NCBI GenBank assembly: GCA_900316205.1
Contig: ONBX01000026.1
Coordinates: 1-50,393, forward strand
From: an uncultured Eubacteriales bacterium
GTDB lineage: Bacteria; Bacillota; Clostridia; Oscillospirales; Oscillospiraceae
Length of the DNA: 50,393 nt
Direction: 5' to 3'
Shown: positions 4,775 through 16,489 of the stretch, piece after piece
Layout of the letters: every line of letters starts with the position of its first letter
How positions within the stretch are numbered: position 1 is the stretch's first letter
The notes under the pieces: model-generated
Database searches by the model: none
Told to the model about the DNA's origin: nothing
What the model saw: only the letters and a program-made list of their open reading frames with translations
Made by a program: the position numbers and the translations under genes

Positions 4775-6451
4775 ATGGCAAAGACAGCGTGGTATAAGGA
4801 GATGGCCGTCTACCAGATCTGGACCCGGAGCTTCTGCGACGGGAACGGGGACGGCATCGGCGACCTTTGGGGCGTACTGAGCAAGCTGGATTACATCAAG
4901 AGCCTGGGGGTGGATGCCATCTGGTTCTCCCCCATTTACCCCTCGCCCAACGCGGATTACGGCTACGACATCTCCGACTATAAGAATATCCACCCGGATT
5001 TCGGCGATCTGGAGCTGTTCAAGAAGGTCCTGGCCGAGGCCCACGACCGGGGGCTGAAGGTCTTCATGGACCTGGTGGTGAACCACAGCTCCGACGAGCA
5101 CCCCTGGTTTCTGGAGAGCAAGAAGAGCCGGGACAATCCCTATCACGATTACTATTACTGGCGCCCCGGCAAGCGCCTGGGCCGCCGCCGGCTGCCTCCC
5201 AACAACTGGACCAGTCTGTTCGAGGGCGGCGCCTGGGAATATGACCCGGGACTCGACGAATATTATCTGCATCTTTTCGCGAAAAAACAGCCGGACCTGA
5301 ACATGGCCAATCCCAAGGTCCGGGAGGAAGTGAAGGACATCCTGCGCTTCTGGCTGGACCTGGGAGTGGACGGTTTCCGGGAGGACGTGGTCACCTTCAT
5401 CGCCAAGACCGAGGGGCTGCCGGACTGCCATCCCTGGATCCCCGTGGCCAACGGCATGAAGCACTACAGCAATCTGCCCGCCGCGAAGGAGTATCTGGCG
5501 GAGTTCAAGCGGGACGTGCTGGATCACTACGACTGCTTCACCGTGGGGGAAAGCCCCATGACCACCGCGGACACCGCCCTGCGCTACGTCACCGAGGGGG
5601 AGGATCAGGTGCTGGACGAGATGATCGCCTTCTCCCATATGGAGGCCGACTGCCTGGCCACCGACATGATCCGCCGGCCCTTCAATCTGCGCAAGATGAA
5701 GAAGGCCTTCAGCTCCTGGCAGATGAAGCTCCAGGGCAAGGCCTGGAACGCGCTTTACATTGAAAACCACGACCATCCCCGCATCATCAGCCGCTACGGC
5801 AGCGAGAAATACCACGACGAGAGCGGCAAGATGCTGGCCGCCATGTACATGCTCCAGCGGGGCACGCCCTTTATCTACCAGGGTCAGGAGATCGGCATGA
5901 CCAACATGCGCCTGCCAAGCACCGACCTCTACCCCGACGTGATGACCCAGAACAGCGTACGCATCATGTCCAGGTTCATGCTCCCCGGCCAGGTGCTGAA
6001 GACCGTTCAGGAGGGTGCAAGGGACAATGCCCGCAGTCCGGTCCAGTGGTCGGCGGAGAAGAACGCGGGCTTCACCACCGGCACCCCCTGGTTCCAGGTG
6101 AACGAGAACTATCCGCGGATCAATGTGGCCGCCCAGGAGGACGACCCCAATTCCCTGCTGAACTTCTATCGGAAGCTGCTGCGCTTCCGCAAGGAGAATC
6201 CGGTGGTCCTCTGGGGCGATTATGTGGAGCTGCTACCCGAGGACAAGAACCTCTATGTCTATGAGCGCAACTACAGCGGCAGGAAGCTTCTGGTGGTCTG
6301 CTCCTTTACGGACAAGCAGGTCCGCTTCCAGGCGCCGGCCGGCATCGAGCTGGACGAGAAGGCCCTTGCTCTCTCCAATTACGACATGAACATGGTCATT
6401 GCCAACGGCTTCACCACCCGGCCCTATGAGCTGCGGGTCTACCTGTTTTAA
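4775..6451 (+). CDS. GH13 oligo-1,6-glucosidase / alpha-glucosidase
   Basis: A 558-aa cytoplasmic glycoside hydrolase of GH13 subfamily 31, expected to release glucose from isomalto-oligosaccharides or related alpha-glucosides. The nucleophile is Asp204 in G-F-R-E-D-V-V, the acid/base Glu259 in V-G-E-S, and the third carboxylate Asp333 in E-N-H-D-H-P-R. The QPDLN motif and Val directly after the nucleophile are features associated with alpha-1,6 rather than alpha-1,4 preference. Length and beta-sandwich C-terminus are normal for the family. An AGGAGG-like site (GGGAGGCAGG) precedes the ATG. No transporter or regulator gene is adjacent, so the substrate is inferred from motifs only; trehalose-6-phosphate hydrolase is a less likely alternative. 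Confidence 0.9.
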   Translation: MAKTAWYKEMAVYQIWTRSFCDGNGDGIGDLWGVLSKLDYIKSLGVDAIWFSPIYPSPNADYGYDISDYKNIHPDFGDLELFKKVLAEAHDRGLKVFMDLVVNHSSDEHPWFLESKKSRDNPYHDYYYWRPGKRLGRRRLPPNNWTSLFEGGAWEYDPGLDEYYLHLFAKKQPDLNMANPKVREEVKDILRFWLDLGVDGFREDVVTFIAKTEGLPDCHPWIPVANGMKHYSNLPAAKEYLAEFKRDVLDHYDCFTVGESPMTTADTALRYVTEGEDQVLDEMIAFSHMEADCLATDMIRRPFNLRKMKKAFSSWQMKLQGKAWNALYIENHDHPRIISRYGSEKYHDESGKMLAAMYMLQRGTPFIYQGQEIGMTNMRLPSTDLYPDVMTQNSVRIMSRFMLPGQVLKTVQEGARDNARSPVQWSAEKNAGFTTGTPWFQVNENYPRINVAAQEDDPNSLLNFYRKLLRFRKENPVVLWGDYVELLPEDKNLYVYERNYSGRKLLVVCSFTDKQVRFQAPAGIELDEKALALSNYDMNMVIANGFTTRPYELRVYLF

Positions 6452-10796: not shown

Positions 10797-10872
10797 GGAC
10801 GATTGGCGCAGCTGGTAGCGCATCCGCTTGACGTGCGGGAGGTCACAAGTTCGAGTCTTGTATCGTCCACCA
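10797..10872 (+). tRNA. tRNA-Val(GAC), island attachment site
   Basis: A full cloverleaf with acceptor GGACGAT / ATCGTCC, encoded CCA, and anticodon loop TTGACGT (GAC). Its last 23 bases recur at 12347-12369, showing that it served as an integration target. It is followed at once by its own terminator. Confidence 0.96.
10850..10872 (+). other. attL-type core within tRNA-Val
   Basis: The 23-bp tRNA 3' end shared with 12347-12369. It restores an intact tRNA, as usual for tyrosine-integrase insertion. Confidence 0.8.
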
Positions 10873-11110: not shown

Positions 11111-12022
11111 TTATAATTCTTCGGCAAAGAAGTCGCTGTCGATCTTCTTCACTTCGTATACTTGCTCAATCGAAACGCCAACACCATGTTTTATCATTAG
11201 CTTCATTAATGCGGTGCCGTCAACTAAGACTACTTTCACGCCTAGAAGATTATTCGCATATTGAAGCGCACCAGATGAAAACTTTGCCGTTGTAATAAAC
11301 AAGCCCTTTTGAGCTTGCTGCCCTTGCAGCGCGCCAACAAATTTTTGTATTTCTGGCTTTCCTACGGTTTGATCCACTGCCCACTGTTTAGCTTGAATAT
11401 AGATTTGACTAAATCCAAGCTGATCTTCTTTAATGACACCATCTATTCCTCCGTCGTTTGACGCTTGCGTTACCAAACCTGCTCCATCTATTCCGCTTCC
11501 GTATCCCATTTTTAGCAAGAGCTTTACTACGAGTCTCTCAAACTCAAAGGGCGTCAGTTTCATAACTTCGTCCATAAGTTGACTGGCGAGGGTGGCTGTT
11601 ACTTGCTTATAAGCAGATTCTAATACTTCCAAGGGAGATTCGTCTTTCTCTTCAACCTTTTCTGTGAAAGAACCCTGTGTTGCGATGTCATGGAACGCCC
11701 TGAACTCTTCTGATTTTTCAAGATAGTTGAGGTCTATTTTTGCACCAGACTTTAAAGCGGCTCTTCCAGCATCTGTAATACGATATTTACCTCGTTGAGG
11801 AGTTTCAATTAACCCCGCTTTATCGAGATATGTCCTTGCCCATGCTACGCGGTTATCAAAAGTCCTTTGTTTGCCACTCGGAAGCATCTCAGAAAGATCT
11901 GATTCAGTAAGCGCCATTTCTCGTGCAATTTGATTCCGCACATCCTTCGCCGCATGAAGATTTCCGTCATCGACAACTTTTAAAAAAGCTTCAAAGAATT
12001 CAAAAAACTTTGGCACTGACAT
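11111..12022 (-). CDS. mrr: Mrr-type restriction endonuclease (type IV-like)
   Basis: A 303-aa putative DNA endonuclease that would cut modified (methylated) incoming DNA. The N-terminal half (about 1-95) is a Mrr_N winged-helix region (EMALTESDLSEMLPSGKQ, then YRITDAGRAAL). The C-terminal half is the Mrr catalytic domain: F-E-F-E-R-L-V-V-K-L-L at about residue 165, then D-G-G-I-D-G-V-I and I-Y-I-Q-A-K-Q-W. This is the PD-(D/E)xK variant whose Asp and QxK contact the metal. The ATG at 12022 is preferred over a GTG 12 bp upstream. Base composition is clearly lower in GC than the flanks, and the gene sits alone between two tRNA-Val attachment cores, so it was acquired horizontally. No cognate methylase is present, as expected for type IV systems. 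Confidence 0.9.
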   Translation of the reverse strand: MSVPKFFEFFEAFLKVVDDGNLHAAKDVRNQIAREMALTESDLSEMLPSGKQRTFDNRVAWARTYLDKAGLIETPQRGKYRITDAGRAALKSGAKIDLNYLEKSEEFRAFHDIATQGSFTEKVEEKDESPLEVLESAYKQVTATLASQLMDEVMKLTPFEFERLVVKLLLKMGYGSGIDGAGLVTQASNDGGIDGVIKEDQLGFSQIYIQAKQWAVDQTVGKPEIQKFVGALQGQQAQKGLFITTAKFSSGALQYANNLLGVKVVLVDGTALMKLMIKHGVGVSIEQVYEVKKIDSDFFAEEL

Positions 12023-12346
12023 ATTACCGCACACCCCGTTATGTTTCTTATGATCAAGTTTTGATCTATGTTTCTCGAATATGATGTCGTTTGGGATTAT
12101 AATAGCATGAAATCAATTACATATCAATGGATGATGAAAAAAGAGAAATGTTAAAGAAAAAAATAACGAAGCCAGCCGACCCTATATGTTCCGGTAGAGT
12201 TGAACAGTTTTTACATATTTTTAGCCTTAAGAGATCGGTACGTATAGGGAACAGCCGGCATAAATCAGTATATATTAGTTCTTAGAAACAGTCAATACGG
12301 TACAGATCGGTACACTTTTTGCCGAATTAACAGGTCAACCTCGGAC
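12023..12346. other. AT-rich spacer upstream of mrr
   Basis: About 320 bp without a gene. It contains a TATAAT box on the minus strand near 12099-12104 that may serve mrr (no good -35 seen), the second copy of the 21-bp island repeat (12208-12228), and several GATCGGTAC motifs (about 12233-12312). Confidence 0.5.
12208..12228. repeat. 21-bp direct repeat inside the island (right copy)
   Basis: Identical to 10983-11003, same orientation. Confidence 0.75.
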
Positions 12347-12369
12347 TTCGAGTCTTGTATCGTCCACCA
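12347..12369 (+). other. Second attachment core (tRNA-Val 3' end copy)
   Basis: An exact 23-bp copy of the tRNA-Val 3' end including CCA, without the rest of the tRNA. A terminator hairpin follows directly, just as after the intact tRNA, so this is either the original chromosomal tRNA end or an internal junction of two stacked elements. Confidence 0.85.
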
Positions 12370-12370
12370 T

Positions 12371-12402
12371 AGATTCGTCACTGAAAAGTGACGAATCTTT
12401 TA
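12371..12402 (+). terminator. Terminator next to the second attachment core
   Basis: A 12-bp stem AGATTCGTCACT / AGTGACGAATCT with a GAAA loop, followed by TTTTATTTTT. It has the same architecture as the terminator after tRNA-Val but an unrelated stem sequence. Confidence 0.88.
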
Positions 12403-12434: not shown

Positions 12435-12456
12435 AGCACCCTTACGGTACCCTTAT
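12435..12456. repeat. Integrase arm-type direct repeats, cluster 1 (two 11-bp units)
   Basis: AGCACCCTTAC followed directly by GGTACCCTTAT, 65 bp past the attachment core. The same 11-bp unit occurs three times at 12951-12982. Tandem 10-12 bp repeats beside an att core are typical arm-binding sites of Tn916/lambda-type integrases. Confidence 0.65.
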
Positions 12457-12474
12457 AAAGGTACAAAGAGGGCG

Positions 12475-12558
12475 TCAGGTTAAGAGGGTTTTTATGGTGT
12501 CTTCCATCCTCGCAGCGGAGTTTTTCTTCATGGTTTCATTGGCATGAGCGTAGACCTT
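12475..12558 (-). pseudogene. C-terminal stump of a tyrosine integrase
   Basis: On the minus strand an open frame of 27 codons reads KVYAHANETMKKNSAARMED and ends shortly after. Y-A-H-A followed by a Met/Lys-rich helix is how many tyrosine recombinases of Firmicute elements end, the Tyr being the catalytic residue. The rest of the catalytic domain (R...H-x-x-R...H) is missing. It is in frame with the small ORF upstream but separated from it by an amber codon at 12559-12561. Its location beside arm-type repeats and an attachment core supports the reading. Confidence 0.6.
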
Positions 12559-12666
12559 CTAGGTGCTGCACTCACGATACTCGCGGAAATCATAGCGGCT
12601 GTTGGAAATGCTCAGGTACTCGACCTCATAATCTTCAACACTAAACTCTTCGTAGAACTTCTTCAT
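12559..12666 (-). CDS. 35-aa small ORF fused in frame to the integrase stump
   Basis: On the minus strand an AAAGGAG ribosome site precedes an ATG encoding MKKFYEEFSVEDYEVEYLSI and 15 more residues, ending at an amber codon. A TGCTATACT extended -10 box lies about 60 bp upstream (near 12727-12735). The peptide is acidic and aromatic and not recognised. It could be a small regulator such as an excisionase relative, or the 5' remnant of a gene joined by deletion to the integrase tail. Confidence 0.45.
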   Translation of the reverse strand: MKKFYEEFSVEDYEVEYLSISNSRYDFREYRECST

Positions 12667-12775
12667 TTTCGTTTTCTCCTTTTCGTTTTTCTTTTTTGTT
12701 TATCTCTTTCTTTCTGTACTCAGTATAGCAAGGAAGGTCTTTCAGCTTGTACAGAAACATGCACAAGGGAACAGC

Positions 12776-12834
12776 AAAAAAGGCGGCTTATTGCTCCTGG
12801 AAGTACCAGGATCTTAGCAATAAGCCGCCTTTTT
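12776..12834. terminator. Large bidirectional terminator in the island
   Basis: A stem of about 19 bp (AAAAAGGCGGCTTATTGCT with its complement) is capped by an inner CCTGG/CCAGG hairpin and has A- and T-runs at both ends. It separates the small minus-strand ORF from the AcrVA2-like gene. Confidence 0.85.
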
Positions 12835-12950
12835 AGAACTGCCTTTGAGCGGGAGTCGTATGAGAGTTGTTAAGAGTCATACCTATGTTGTTTTATTGCA
12901 GTATTCAAGTTGATTTGAAGTTGGTGGAAGTTGTTTTGTTGTTGTAAAAC

Positions 12951-12982
12951 AGTACCCTTACAGTACCCTTATAGTACCCTTA
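12951..12982. repeat. Integrase arm-type direct repeats, cluster 2 (three 11-bp units)
   Basis: AGTACCCTTAC, AGTACCCTTAT and AGTACCCTTAT in exact tandem (period 11 bp). Same unit as at 12435-12456. It lies just upstream of the promoter of the AcrVA2-like gene, so binding here could also affect that promoter. Confidence 0.7.
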
Positions 12983-12994
12983 TAAATGCTATTA

Positions 12995-13193: not shown

Positions 13194-14309
13194 ATGAATA
13201 ACAAAGACAAAGAAGCCTTAACTGCGCTGTTGAAGGAGAACCATGAGGTCTATCAAGGCATTTCTCGGCGTATCCATTGGACGGTAGCTGATTCAGCTTG
13301 TCTTGATGACCTGATGAATTCTAAGGAGTTTCAAAAAGACATCGTCAGCAGAATGCAGCATGCTGCAAACTCAAAGGCAGTTGCGGGATACATGCCCTCT
13401 TTTCTGGCATTTAAGGCATGGCAAAGAACAAAGGCCGTCTATTCCTTCAACAATGAATTCGTTGATGATATCGCCAAAACATCTGATACAAACCTATACA
13501 CATCGTTGCTTGATCGCCTTCCGTTCAAGGACATGCTATTCTTCTTCCCCGAAGGGACACTCCCAACGATTAAGGATGAGGAAACGGCAGGGATGTATGT
13601 TCATGTTGAACGGCATCCCGAACATCTGTGGATCATCTTCAATTTCATTGACAGAGCATTTAACAATGGTACACAGATCTATCCTGGCATTGCTATGGCA
13701 TTTCCGATAACCAATGGGATGAAGTTATCAGGAGTCTTTGAAACCCCTCAGTACTTGGAATGGCTGACAGTATATAAACGGACGGTTTTTATCGATCGTC
13801 ATTTGAATGAACAAGAAGCTGAGGAATGCTTACTTGCGACAAGAAAAGCTCTGAATGTGGCTATCAATCTGCTGTACTATCTTTCTTCTCAAAATGCTGA
13901 TATCAAGGAAGTCAAGTCCAGCAAAAAGACACACAAGGCACCTCCAATGCAAAAGAAAGAAGAGGTTCCCGTAGTCAAGCTTCATGAAGTCGGAGCAGAG
14001 TATCCCACGATTATTTACCGCAAATTAAAAGTGAAGTCTGAGGAATCCAAGGCTGATGAAGAATTAGATGGTGAGAGCACTACAACTCAGGCCGCAAAAA
14101 GCCCGCAAAAAAGGCGTCCGCATGCACGAAAAGCGCATTGGCAACATTACTGGACAGGAAAAGGACGCTCAACATTGGAAGTTCGCTGGATTCCAGATCT
14201 GTTTGTTGGCGCGAATCGTGATGACCAAGTCGTTGTTGTGTATGATAGTGAAAAGGGTTCCTTGAAAGGGAAGAGAAACCCCAACACGAGCAAGAAAAAG
14301 AAATCATGA
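13194..14309 (+). CDS. AcrVA2-like family protein (putative anti-CRISPR relative)
   Basis: 371 aa. The C-terminal block at residues 308-338, R-P-H-A-R-K-A-H-W-Q-H-Y-W-T-G-K-G then L-E-V-R-W-I-P-D-L-F-V, matches the diagnostic end of AcrVA2 (R-P-H-x-R-R-G-H-W-H-G-Y-W-x-G ... R-W-x-P-x-F-V). The region around residues 66-110 (FLAFKAWQRTKAVYSFN...) corresponds to the W-R-x-T-L-x-I-Y segment of AcrVA2. AcrVA2 of Moraxella blocks Cas12a production by acting on the nascent protein and its mRNA. The family is much wider than Cas12a hosts, so the target here is unknown. Residues 240-305 form a Lys/Glu-rich linker of low complexity. Base composition is lower in GC than the core genome. It has its own promoter and an AAAGAGG ribosome site. 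It is a cargo gene of the tRNA-Val island. Confidence 0.75.
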   Translation: MNNKDKEALTALLKENHEVYQGISRRIHWTVADSACLDDLMNSKEFQKDIVSRMQHAANSKAVAGYMPSFLAFKAWQRTKAVYSFNNEFVDDIAKTSDTNLYTSLLDRLPFKDMLFFFPEGTLPTIKDEETAGMYVHVERHPEHLWIIFNFIDRAFNNGTQIYPGIAMAFPITNGMKLSGVFETPQYLEWLTVYKRTVFIDRHLNEQEAEECLLATRKALNVAINLLYYLSSQNADIKEVKSSKKTHKAPPMQKKEEVPVVKLHEVGAEYPTIIYRKLKVKSEESKADEELDGESTTTQAAKSPQKRRPHARKAHWQHYWTGKGRSTLEVRWIPDLFVGANRDDQVVVVYDSEKGSLKGKRNPNTSKKKKS

Positions 14310-14472: not shown

Positions 14473-14512
14473 TTTGATGGAAACAAGAAGATCTTTGACG
14501 GAGGTGATGACG

Positions 14513-16489
14513 GTGCGGCCGGTGATCGTGAAACTTGCAAAAATGCTGACGGACTGTATGGACGCAAGGCTGGGACTCGTCCGCATGGACGATAGTCGCT
14601 GGGAATACAAGATGCTGGACGCTCTGCTGACCGACGAGATGGCAGAGCTGATGCTCAAAATGGGCCGGCGCAGGCCCACCACCGCGGCGGAGCTTGCAAA
14701 AAAGACCGGCTGGGACGAGGCGCGGATCCAGAAGCTTCTGGACGAGCTGGCGGAGATCGGCCTGGTGGAGTATAACCGGCACAACAGCGACCGGCACAAG
14801 CAGTATGTGGTGCCGATCTTTGTGGTGGGCAGCGCGGAAAATCTGGTACTGAACAAGCCTCTCCTGGAGAAGCTTCCGGAGATCGCGGAGTTCTTCTATC
14901 AGATGGCAGAAGAACCGCTGAAGCTGATCTCCCATATGGTGCCCCCCGGCGGCGCGGGCCTGGGCTTTCACGCCGTCCCCGTGGAGCGGGCGATCCCCCG
15001 GGACAGCCGCCCGCTCTCCATCGAGCAGCTCTCCTACTGGCTGGACAAATACCGGGATCAGCTGGCCATCAGCGACTGCGTCTGCCGCACGAGCATGATC
15101 CTGCGCGGGGAGGGCTGCGGCGAGCTGCCGGACAAGGGCTGCATCCAGGTGGGCGATTACGCCGACTATGTGGTGGAGACCGGGAAGGCCCAGCGGGCGA
15201 CCTACGACGAGGTGATGGCCCTGCTCAAGCGCTCCGAGGAAAACGGCTTCATGCACCAGGTCACCAACGGCGACGGCGGAGAGGACATCTTTGCCATCTG
15301 CAACTGCTCCGTGGGTAACTGCTTTGCGCTGCGCTGCTCGCAGCTTTTCAACAATCCCAACGGCTCCGCCTCCGCCTACCGGGCCGTGGTGGAGCGCGAG
15401 CGCTGCGTTGCCTGCGGCAAATGCGCCGAGGTCTGCCCGGCCGGCGCGGTGCGCCTTGGCCGGAAGCTGGACACGAAAGACGGGCCGGTGGTTTACGAAC
15501 ACGAGCCCCTTGCTGGTGAGACGCCGGGCTGGAGCCGGAAAAACTGGCACCCGGATTACCGGGACCGCAACCAGATCAACTGCTATCCCGTGGGCACGGC
15601 GCCCTGCAAGTGCGCCTGCCCCGCCCATGTCTCCATTCAGGGCGTGCTGCAGCTTGTGAAGGAAGAGCGCTTTCTGGACGCCCTGAAGCTGCTGCGGCAG
15701 GACAACCCCTTCCCCTCCCTTTGTGACACGGCCTGCGACCACCGCTGCGAAAAGGTCTGCATGCGGGGCAGCGTGGATAGCCCCATGGAGATCTGCGCGG
15801 CCATGACGCGCCTCGCGGAGATGGAGCAGCAGTTTGTAGAGGAGCTCGTTCCCCACAAAGTGCGCATGAAGGGCGAGGACAAGGACTACGAGCTGCCCGT
15901 GGCCGTCGTCGGCACGGGCTATGCCCAGCTCAGCTGCGCCTACTTCCTCGCGCAGACGGGCTATCCCGTGACGGTTTTCGGCGACTCGGCGCCCTGTAAC
16001 GCAGCGGAGCGGACGCTCCTGGAAAGGCTGGGCGTACGCTTCAAGGACGGCACCCCCGAGAGCGACGCCTACGCCGCGGTCTATCCGGAGCTCTTCCCCA
16101 TTCGGAAAAAGGACGCAGCCTCCCAGATTGAGGAAGGGCACGAGGCGGCCAAGAGCATCCATCGCGCGCTGCACCCCGGGCACAGTCAGACTCTGGCGAG
16201 AGACCCCCGCAGCTTCCGCTCCTTCCGGCGGGACGACGTGGTGCTGCCGCCGGAAAAGATCAAAACCCACGCCTGCCTCTCCTGCGGCGTGAGCTATGTG
16301 GACCCCAACCGCTGCATCGGCTGCGGCATCTGCACCACCCGCTGCTTCTTCGACGCCATCCATCTGGTGCGCAGCCACCCGGAATTTGTGGACTACTGCA
16401 GCGCGGACGACACGGTGAAGAAGGTCGTGCTGGGCGGCGTCCGCCGGGCGGGCAAGATCGCGATCAAGGCCCTGAAGCGGGGCACCTGA
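14513..16489 (+). CDS. Fe-S protein with N-terminal winged helix and reduced GltD-like flavoprotein part
   Basis: About 658 aa. Residues 1-130 include a winged-helix-like segment (RRRPTTAAELAKKTGWDEAR). A Cys-rich region (S-D-C-V-C-R-T...C-N-C-S-V-G-N-C) is followed by a 4Fe-4S motif CVACGKCAEVCP near residue 300. A GltD-type Fe-S domain (CKCACPAHVSIQG...CDTACDHRCEKVCMRG) comes next, and a second ferredoxin motif CIGCGICTTRC near residue 605. Normally a complete FAD/NADPH oxidoreductase of about 400 residues separates the last two. Here the Rossmann start is altered (V-G-T-G-Y-A-Q-L-S-C-A) and only about 120 residues remain, so the flavoprotein is probably internally deleted. The GTG at 14513 follows GGAGGTGAT; an upstream ATG at 14477 lacks a ribosome site. 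Confidence 0.75.
   Translation: MRPVIVKLAKMLTDCMDARLGLVRMDDSRWEYKMLDALLTDEMAELMLKMGRRRPTTAAELAKKTGWDEARIQKLLDELAEIGLVEYNRHNSDRHKQYVVPIFVVGSAENLVLNKPLLEKLPEIAEFFYQMAEEPLKLISHMVPPGGAGLGFHAVPVERAIPRDSRPLSIEQLSYWLDKYRDQLAISDCVCRTSMILRGEGCGELPDKGCIQVGDYADYVVETGKAQRATYDEVMALLKRSEENGFMHQVTNGDGGEDIFAICNCSVGNCFALRCSQLFNNPNGSASAYRAVVERERCVACGKCAEVCPAGAVRLGRKLDTKDGPVVYEHEPLAGETPGWSRKNWHPDYRDRNQINCYPVGTAPCKCACPAHVSIQGVLQLVKEERFLDALKLLRQDNPFPSLCDTACDHRCEKVCMRGSVDSPMEICAAMTRLAEMEQQFVEELVPHKVRMKGEDKDYELPVAVVGTGYAQLSCAYFLAQTGYPVTVFGDSAPCNAAERTLLERLGVRFKDGTPESDAYAAVYPELFPIRKKDAASQIEEGHEAAKSIHRALHPGHSQTLARDPRSFRSFRRDDVVLPPEKIKTHACLSCGVSYVDPNRCIGCGICTTRCFFDAIHLVRSHPEFVDYCSADDTVKKVVLGGVRRAGKIAIKALKRGT

Follow-up and report, generated by a model that had tools for sequence, protein, structure and literature searches.

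An AcrVA2/FinQ-family protein beside a tRNA-Val insertion site in an uncultured Oscillospiraceae bacterium, and its possible function

The gene, its protein and the family

The window, i.e. the whole stretch of DNA that was analysed, comprises 50,393 nucleotides (contig ONBX01000026.1, assembly GCA_900316205.1) of an uncultured member of the Oscillospiraceae that is probably of animal-gut origin. It contains a tRNA-Val gene, followed by an Mrr-type restriction gene and by an open reading frame (ORF) with an ATG start. The protein encoded by this ORF, present in a single copy in its genome, belongs with near certainty to the family of AcrVA2, the Moraxella anti-CRISPR protein (PDB 7ci1, 7ci2), and of FinQ, known from IncI plasmids. 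The parts of the protein are listed below, with mean pairwise identities from an alignment of 11 diverse members (55 pairs); the clostridial branch was aligned separately.

13194..14309, + strand: AcrVA2/FinQ-family protein, 371 residues (sequence, profile and fold matches)
13404..13493, + strand: conserved W-x-x-x-K-x-V-Y segment, residues 71-100 (23.8% identity)
13521..13889, + strand: divergent middle part, residues 110-232, a beta-sheet and two long helices by predicted secondary structure (16.3 and 15.6% identity)
14022..14108, + strand: Lys/Glu-rich disordered linker, residues 277-305 (12.3% identity in 27 of the 55 pairs; predicted local distance difference test, pLDDT, below 50 at 270-310)
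14109..14213, + strand: signature domain RPHxRxxHWQxYWxG...W, residues 306-340 (47.3% identity across the family)
14256..14306, + strand: branch-specific Lys-rich tail with KGKRNPNTSKKK, residues 355-371 (tail pattern counts)

The first-pass annotation had likened the protein to AcrVA2 on the basis of two motifs, and this likeness was borne out. Both the C-terminal signature, starting at R308, and the N-terminal W76-x-R-T-x-x-x-Y are present, and among 27 sequences of the branch the greater part of their residues varies little or not at all. A single-sequence search against 177,635 distinct PDB sequences returned AcrVA2 at an E-value of 7.8e-9, with the runner-up at 0.34, and a profile of 29 sequences returned AcrVA2 (3.4e-11) as the sole match with E <= 10. 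The W segment by itself scores 5.5 bits (single sequence) or 6.4 bits (profile) and is not significant alone. The predicted structure of the protein also matches the AcrVA2 fold, so that sequence, profile and fold all agree, and no other family was clearly matched. PHROG_6160, a group of phage proteins without an assigned function in its library, matches the window protein at 2.5e-20, and the Pfam family PF26125 is precomputed on 66 of the 67 homologues from the first search. The best Pfam row for the window protein itself, CBM60 (E 0.2), remains under the cut-off, NCBIfam gave no row for it, and a PADLOC type I specificity row (E 0.0036) covers residues 198-285 only and is not meaningful.

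Compared with AcrVA2, the window protein has an added Lys-rich tail and Lys/Glu-rich linker, and the close relatives of its branch are found in records titled Ruminococcaceae, Clostridiales and Oscillospiraceae. Apart from the signature, the non-tail blocks are 12-28% identical among the 11 diverse members (the strand after the signature could be compared in 45 of the 55 pairs); the tail block shows 35.3%, comparable in just 3 of the pairs. Within the clostridial alignment the identities are 75.7% for the signature, 74.8% for the Lys-rich tail, 68.0% for the W block and 29.8% for the linker. The tail pattern occurs in 54 of the 58 first-search proteins of at least 355 residues (the cluster of the window protein counted), two of the remaining four having a close variant, and in none of the 37 proteins new in a second search, fragments among them. 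A conserved common domain next to a divergent remainder fits, rather than proves, a shared output with changing targets. The structure model is of low confidence at residues 243-256 and 270-310. The 65-residue Lys/Glu-rich linker proposed earlier includes an x-V-G strand at residues 262-276 that is conserved in the branch.

FinQ provides the family with a characterised target outside CRISPR. The FinQ protein of an IncI1-type plasmid (a 363-residue ORF, L003:5893-6984) matches AcrVA2 at 4.6e-17, PHROG_6160 at 9.3e-48 and the window protein at 7e-14 in a single comparison (22% identity), while a profile-profile comparison of the clostridial side (27 sequences) with the FinQ side (11 sequences) gave 2.6e-23 across 260 columns. 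The homology between FinQ and the window protein starts at the W motif and runs through to the C-terminal strand, and both are found on mobile elements. FinQ differs in lacking the Lys-rich tail, in adjoining IncI transfer genes and in having the F transfer operon as its target; according to the review PMC8744291, it acts at several sites in the F tra operon, where it ends transcription independently of Rho.

In L003 the finQ gene is annotated from position 6205 (260 residues), whereas the ATG of the ORF lies at 5893; the additional N-terminus is common to other FinQ-like proteins. The reference FinQ sequence (P0076, FINQ_ECOLX) differs from a plasmid-borne FinQ (P0068) through the second half of the signature motif, and this discrepancy may have hidden the kinship of FinQ with AcrVA2. 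In the open-licence literature no paper was found that joins FinQ with anti-CRISPR proteins, although the AcrVA2 preprint or the 1989 finQ paper may state the link; PMC7913775 was judged not to make it.

The insertion site at tRNA-Val

The region upstream of the gene and its right border have the following features.

10797..10872, + strand: tRNA-Val(gac), an integration hotspot (tRNA call; Rfam 5.5e-13)
10850..10872, + strand: left copy of a 23-base-pair (bp) exact repeat, identical to the 3' end of tRNA-Val
11111..12034, - strand: Mrr-type (type IV) restriction endonuclease between the repeat copies (Pfam Mrr_cat 1.8e-33, Mrr_N 3e-32; PADLOC mREase_IV 1.3e-71)
12347..12369, + strand: right 23-bp copy of the tRNA-Val 3' end (exact repeat)
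12371..12398, + strand: terminator-like hairpin with T tail, directly past the right repeat copy (4 terminator-like sites in the region against 3.2 expected)
12447-12459, + strand: a further GTACCCTTATAAA copy, candidate integrase arm site
12777..12834, no strand assigned: long, imperfect inverted repeat upstream of the family gene (79% match to its own reverse strand)
12949..12986, + strand: tandem AGTACCCTTA repeats, candidate integrase arm sites
14485..14519, + strand: right border, where DNA common to four relatives of the same genus begins (at 14485, 14497, 14497 and 14519)

The border was derived from four relatives (G075, G033, G073 and G006) out of 61 genomes searched. The G+C content is 40.3% in the part with the Mrr gene and 43.2% in the second part, as compared with 61.8 and 64.1% in the flanks. 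The 3' end of the tRNA is directly repeated, the composition is foreign and the presence is patchy, all as in the cargo of a genomic island at a tRNA site. The chromosomal island at tRNA-Val and the adjoining restriction gene, both described in the first-pass annotation, are thus confirmed by the repeat, the G+C content and the Mrr matches, but the AcrVA2-like gene does not lie within the tRNA-Val repeat pair. G075 (L041) likewise has the 23-bp pair, with its first copy at tRNA-Val, but the island between the copies is another one and carries a tyrosine integrase (Pfam 4.3e-27). G033 also has two copies of the 23-bp repeat upstream of the same gene, with no tRNA gene within the 8.9 kilobases (kb) examined, and no copy was found in the compared stretch of G073 and G006. 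Between 10873 and 14485 the ORF list of the window contains no integrase-like ORF, so that an integrase of the island's own was not found there.

The promoter that had been proposed for the gene could not be upheld, as 9 promoter-like sites were counted against 6.7 +/- 2.1 expected, which is not above chance. The integrase-type repeats do exist as the tandem AGTACCCTTA copies, and their role as arm sites is conjectural. The inverted repeat at 12777-12834 falls inside a small ORF (12544-12873), which is doubtful as a gene because of this long repeat.

Homologues, their settings and Cas12a

The first search returned 67 proteins with E <= 1e-3, and the members of this set with a query coverage of 84% or more have identities of 48-99%, the 99% match being the cluster of the window protein itself. 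The distribution in the bacterial family is patchy. A homologue at 61% identity occurs in one other genome of the same genus (2 of 60 genomes, that of the window included), and 5 of the 400 genomes drawn from the family, again including that of the window, have a member, three of them with distant members only. The homologue in the same genus (G033) starts 120 bp past a 22-bp copy of the 3' end of a tRNA-Met, the tRNA's own copy being situated 390 bp further left. Repeats of a tRNA end thus adjoin the gene in both species, and the tRNA differs between them.

Other members of the family are also found near mobility genes. In L007 a branch member is flanked by a serine recombinase and by a terminase-like gene (E 6.7e-6, just under the cut-off), with a DnaB-type helicase upstream, in what looks like a prophage locus. 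In L006 a serine recombinase is encoded 4.8 kb upstream of the family gene, and distant members occur near an integrase (L010), a zeta toxin (L008) and a transposase (L013), as well as in 16 phage records. A fold search among viral proteins gave 8 family matches at E <= 0.001. Scanning viral contigs with the single protein yielded no relative, and scanning with the alignment yielded two distant loci. For L009, L046, L049 and L050 no clear mobile marker was seen by eye, and individual neighbours in L009, L049 and L050 have no Pfam match. A conserved partner gene was likewise not noticed by eye among the listed neighbours of the homologues.

Two of these loci have further peculiarities. The relative in L050 (L050:7526-9247) has 573 residues, with a W-x-x-x-K-x-V-Y-like segment near the start, the signature near the end and a long extra middle; the protein has no Pfam match. 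The zeta-toxin gene (L008:10859-11949, Pfam 1.9e-39), which is preceded by a small ORF, lies in a Lachnospiraceae genome, beside the distant member of L008.

Not all members are cargo of mobile elements, because family genes also occur in operons of the type VI secretion system (T6SS). In Buttiauxella and Lelliottia a family gene (AcrVA2 match 1.7e-11) is located between tssM and tssA. Counting all the genomes of this observation, the loci are L011:6882-7898, L012:9767-10780 and L015:9853-10222, together with L055, L056/L062, L057, L060 and L061. In Siccibacter mere pieces of the family gene are found at this site. Among 246 genomes, 7 more gave a match, and in 5 of these either a partial copy or fragments of the gene stand next to tssM. 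The pattern looks as if an old member of the operon is being lost.

The first-pass annotation had seen no Cas12a in the window, and this extends to the whole genome and to 12 other carriers of the gene. The Cas12a model TIGR04330 matched in 0 of the 13 carriers, so that the co-occurrence expected for an anti-Cas12a function was not found. Across the order it matched in 6 of 394 genomes, 5 of them above the cut-off and none of the six in the bacterial family of the window. The positives come from this order-wide run, as the first checks had no responding control. Cas1 was found in 3 of the 13 carriers but not in the genome of the window, the control genomes being positive in 9 of 14 cases; this search did not extend to CRISPR arrays. 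The absence of Cas12a and Cas1 is likely but not certain, because the genomes are incomplete or of unstated completeness: that of the window is 96.4% complete in 88 contigs, carrier G369 is 79% complete, and seven carriers were reached via named loci without a completeness figure. The Cas9 model PF16593 matched no control genome, and the Cas9 check therefore says nothing.

A possible silencer and the alternatives

AcrVA2 recognises nascent Cas12a via LSKT near the N-terminus and triggers degradation of the cas12a mRNA, according to a 2026 review that describes it as the first documented prokaryotic case of translation-dependent mRNA degradation inhibiting CRISPR-Cas (PMC13131331). A meeting report states that tagged enzymes (Cas9, Cas12f) become silencing targets of AcrVA2 (PMC12908700). 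Since AcrVA2 and FinQ share descent and both lower the mRNA of their target, we expect mRNA silencing for the window protein as well, and this is the main reason for the reading proposed here. By analogy, there is about an even chance that the window protein is a silencer of the nascent-peptide/mRNA type that is aimed at something other than Cas12a. It would bind a short peptide of one particular protein leaving the ribosome, as AcrVA2 does, upon which the mRNA of that protein would be destroyed. Target choice would fall to the divergent N-terminal and middle parts, residues 110-232 being the presumed target-reading part, and the strongly conserved RPHxRxxHWQxYWxG domain at the C-terminus would carry out what the family has in common, such as contact with the ribosome, the mRNA or the decay machinery. 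The Lys-rich tail may adapt the protein to the ribosome or the RNases of its host. In this reading the gene is the cargo of insertions at tRNA genes. TTC5, of eukaryotic tubulin autoregulation, serves as a comparison system only, with no homology claimed.

Cas12a is probably not the target. The analogy with FinQ makes a defence gene, or one that belongs to a rival mobile element, the probable target instead, and FinQ's membership of the family adds weight to the idea of a target other than Cas12a. The target suggested earlier, another host protein made during defence, is only one option, and FinQ speaks at least equally for the transfer genes of rivals.

Several observations weigh against this silencer. 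The sequence match to AcrVA2 is nearly confined to the C-terminal stretch in both the single-sequence and the profile search, and the structural alignment with AcrVA2 has 13-15% identity, so that the function could have changed. Four other models reached a mean pLDDT of 57-64, and the linker and tail are not modelled with confidence. To our knowledge, there is no experiment on the clostridial branch. The repeat pair 10850..10872 / 12347..12369 encloses the Mrr unit only and leaves the AcrVA2-like gene outside, and the segment with this gene has no repeat copy at its right end. Relatives in T6SS operons poorly fit a simple silencing of rivals. The mechanism described for FinQ is transcription termination, not mRNA decay, and among the first 60 residues of 33 F Tra proteins an LSKT-like motif was found at 1 site, against a shuffle mean of 0.94. 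Even for AcrVA2 the binding mode is unsettled, as the peptide in its crystal is the internal Cas12a segment 618-634 rather than the N-terminus.

One alternative, which we regard as possible but rather unlikely, keeps the mechanism proposed above and gives it a specific target: the protein would be a FinQ-like fertility inhibitor, lowering the mRNA of transfer genes that a competing conjugative element has brought into its cell. The homology with FinQ argues for it, as does the distribution on plasmids. A tblastn search (E <= 0.01) gave 498 plasmid records, mainly from Escherichia (215), Salmonella (122) and Acinetobacter (103), of which 428 are typed as conjugative, 53 as mobilizable and 17 as non-mobilizable; a good many of the matching places listed carry a finQ annotation. 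However, the relatives in phage records and in the prophage-like locus L007 occur where a block of conjugation is less obviously useful, and no transfer-gene target was identified. An unlikely second possibility is an anti-defence protein that silences a host defence gene other than Cas12a; the adjoining Mrr gene, the relatives carried by phages and the anti-defence role of AcrVA2 itself are in line with this, whereas no defence gene is linked to the window protein, and the failure to find Cas1 in 10 of the 13 carriers speaks against CRISPR systems as the common target. It is doubtful that the protein acts only on finished proteins, or directly on DNA or RNA, with no decay of mRNA through the nascent chain. 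A true Cas12a inhibitor, retained because the element also visits Cas12a-bearing hosts, is very improbable. The occurrence of Cas12a within the order is in its favour, but no match was obtained in any of the 13 carriers, and none of the six matching genomes is from the bacterial family of the window.

As a relative of both AcrVA2 and FinQ occurs in a genome in which neither Cas1 nor Cas12a was found, the family may silence genes of several kinds. We tentatively suggest, while considering it somewhat less than probable, that AcrVA2 and FinQ belong to a single family of mRNA silencers addressed by peptides, which mobile elements direct at one another and at their hosts. Within it the clostridial branch would form a line apart, equipped with an adaptor for decay or for the ribosome (the tail) and with a target peptide of its own, in hosts where Cas12a was not found, and the "termination" by FinQ would be a loss of mRNA triggered by the nascent peptide. 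With FinQ, AcrVA2 acquires a characterised relative outside CRISPR, and with the clostridial branch it acquires relatives in hosts where Cas12a was not detected; consequently, the stop that FinQ imposes on tra and the mRNA destruction of the AcrVA2 type can be tested jointly. The AcrVA2-family naming of FinQ-like proteins was known, and what is added here is a functional reading wider than anti-CRISPR. Two FinQ-like proteins (P0072 and P0074) are already named "AcrVA2 family anti-CRISPR protein" by their database source, a label that should probably not be taken to mean anti-CRISPR in every genome. A Shewanella phage protein has likewise been described as AcrVA2 (PMC10846135).
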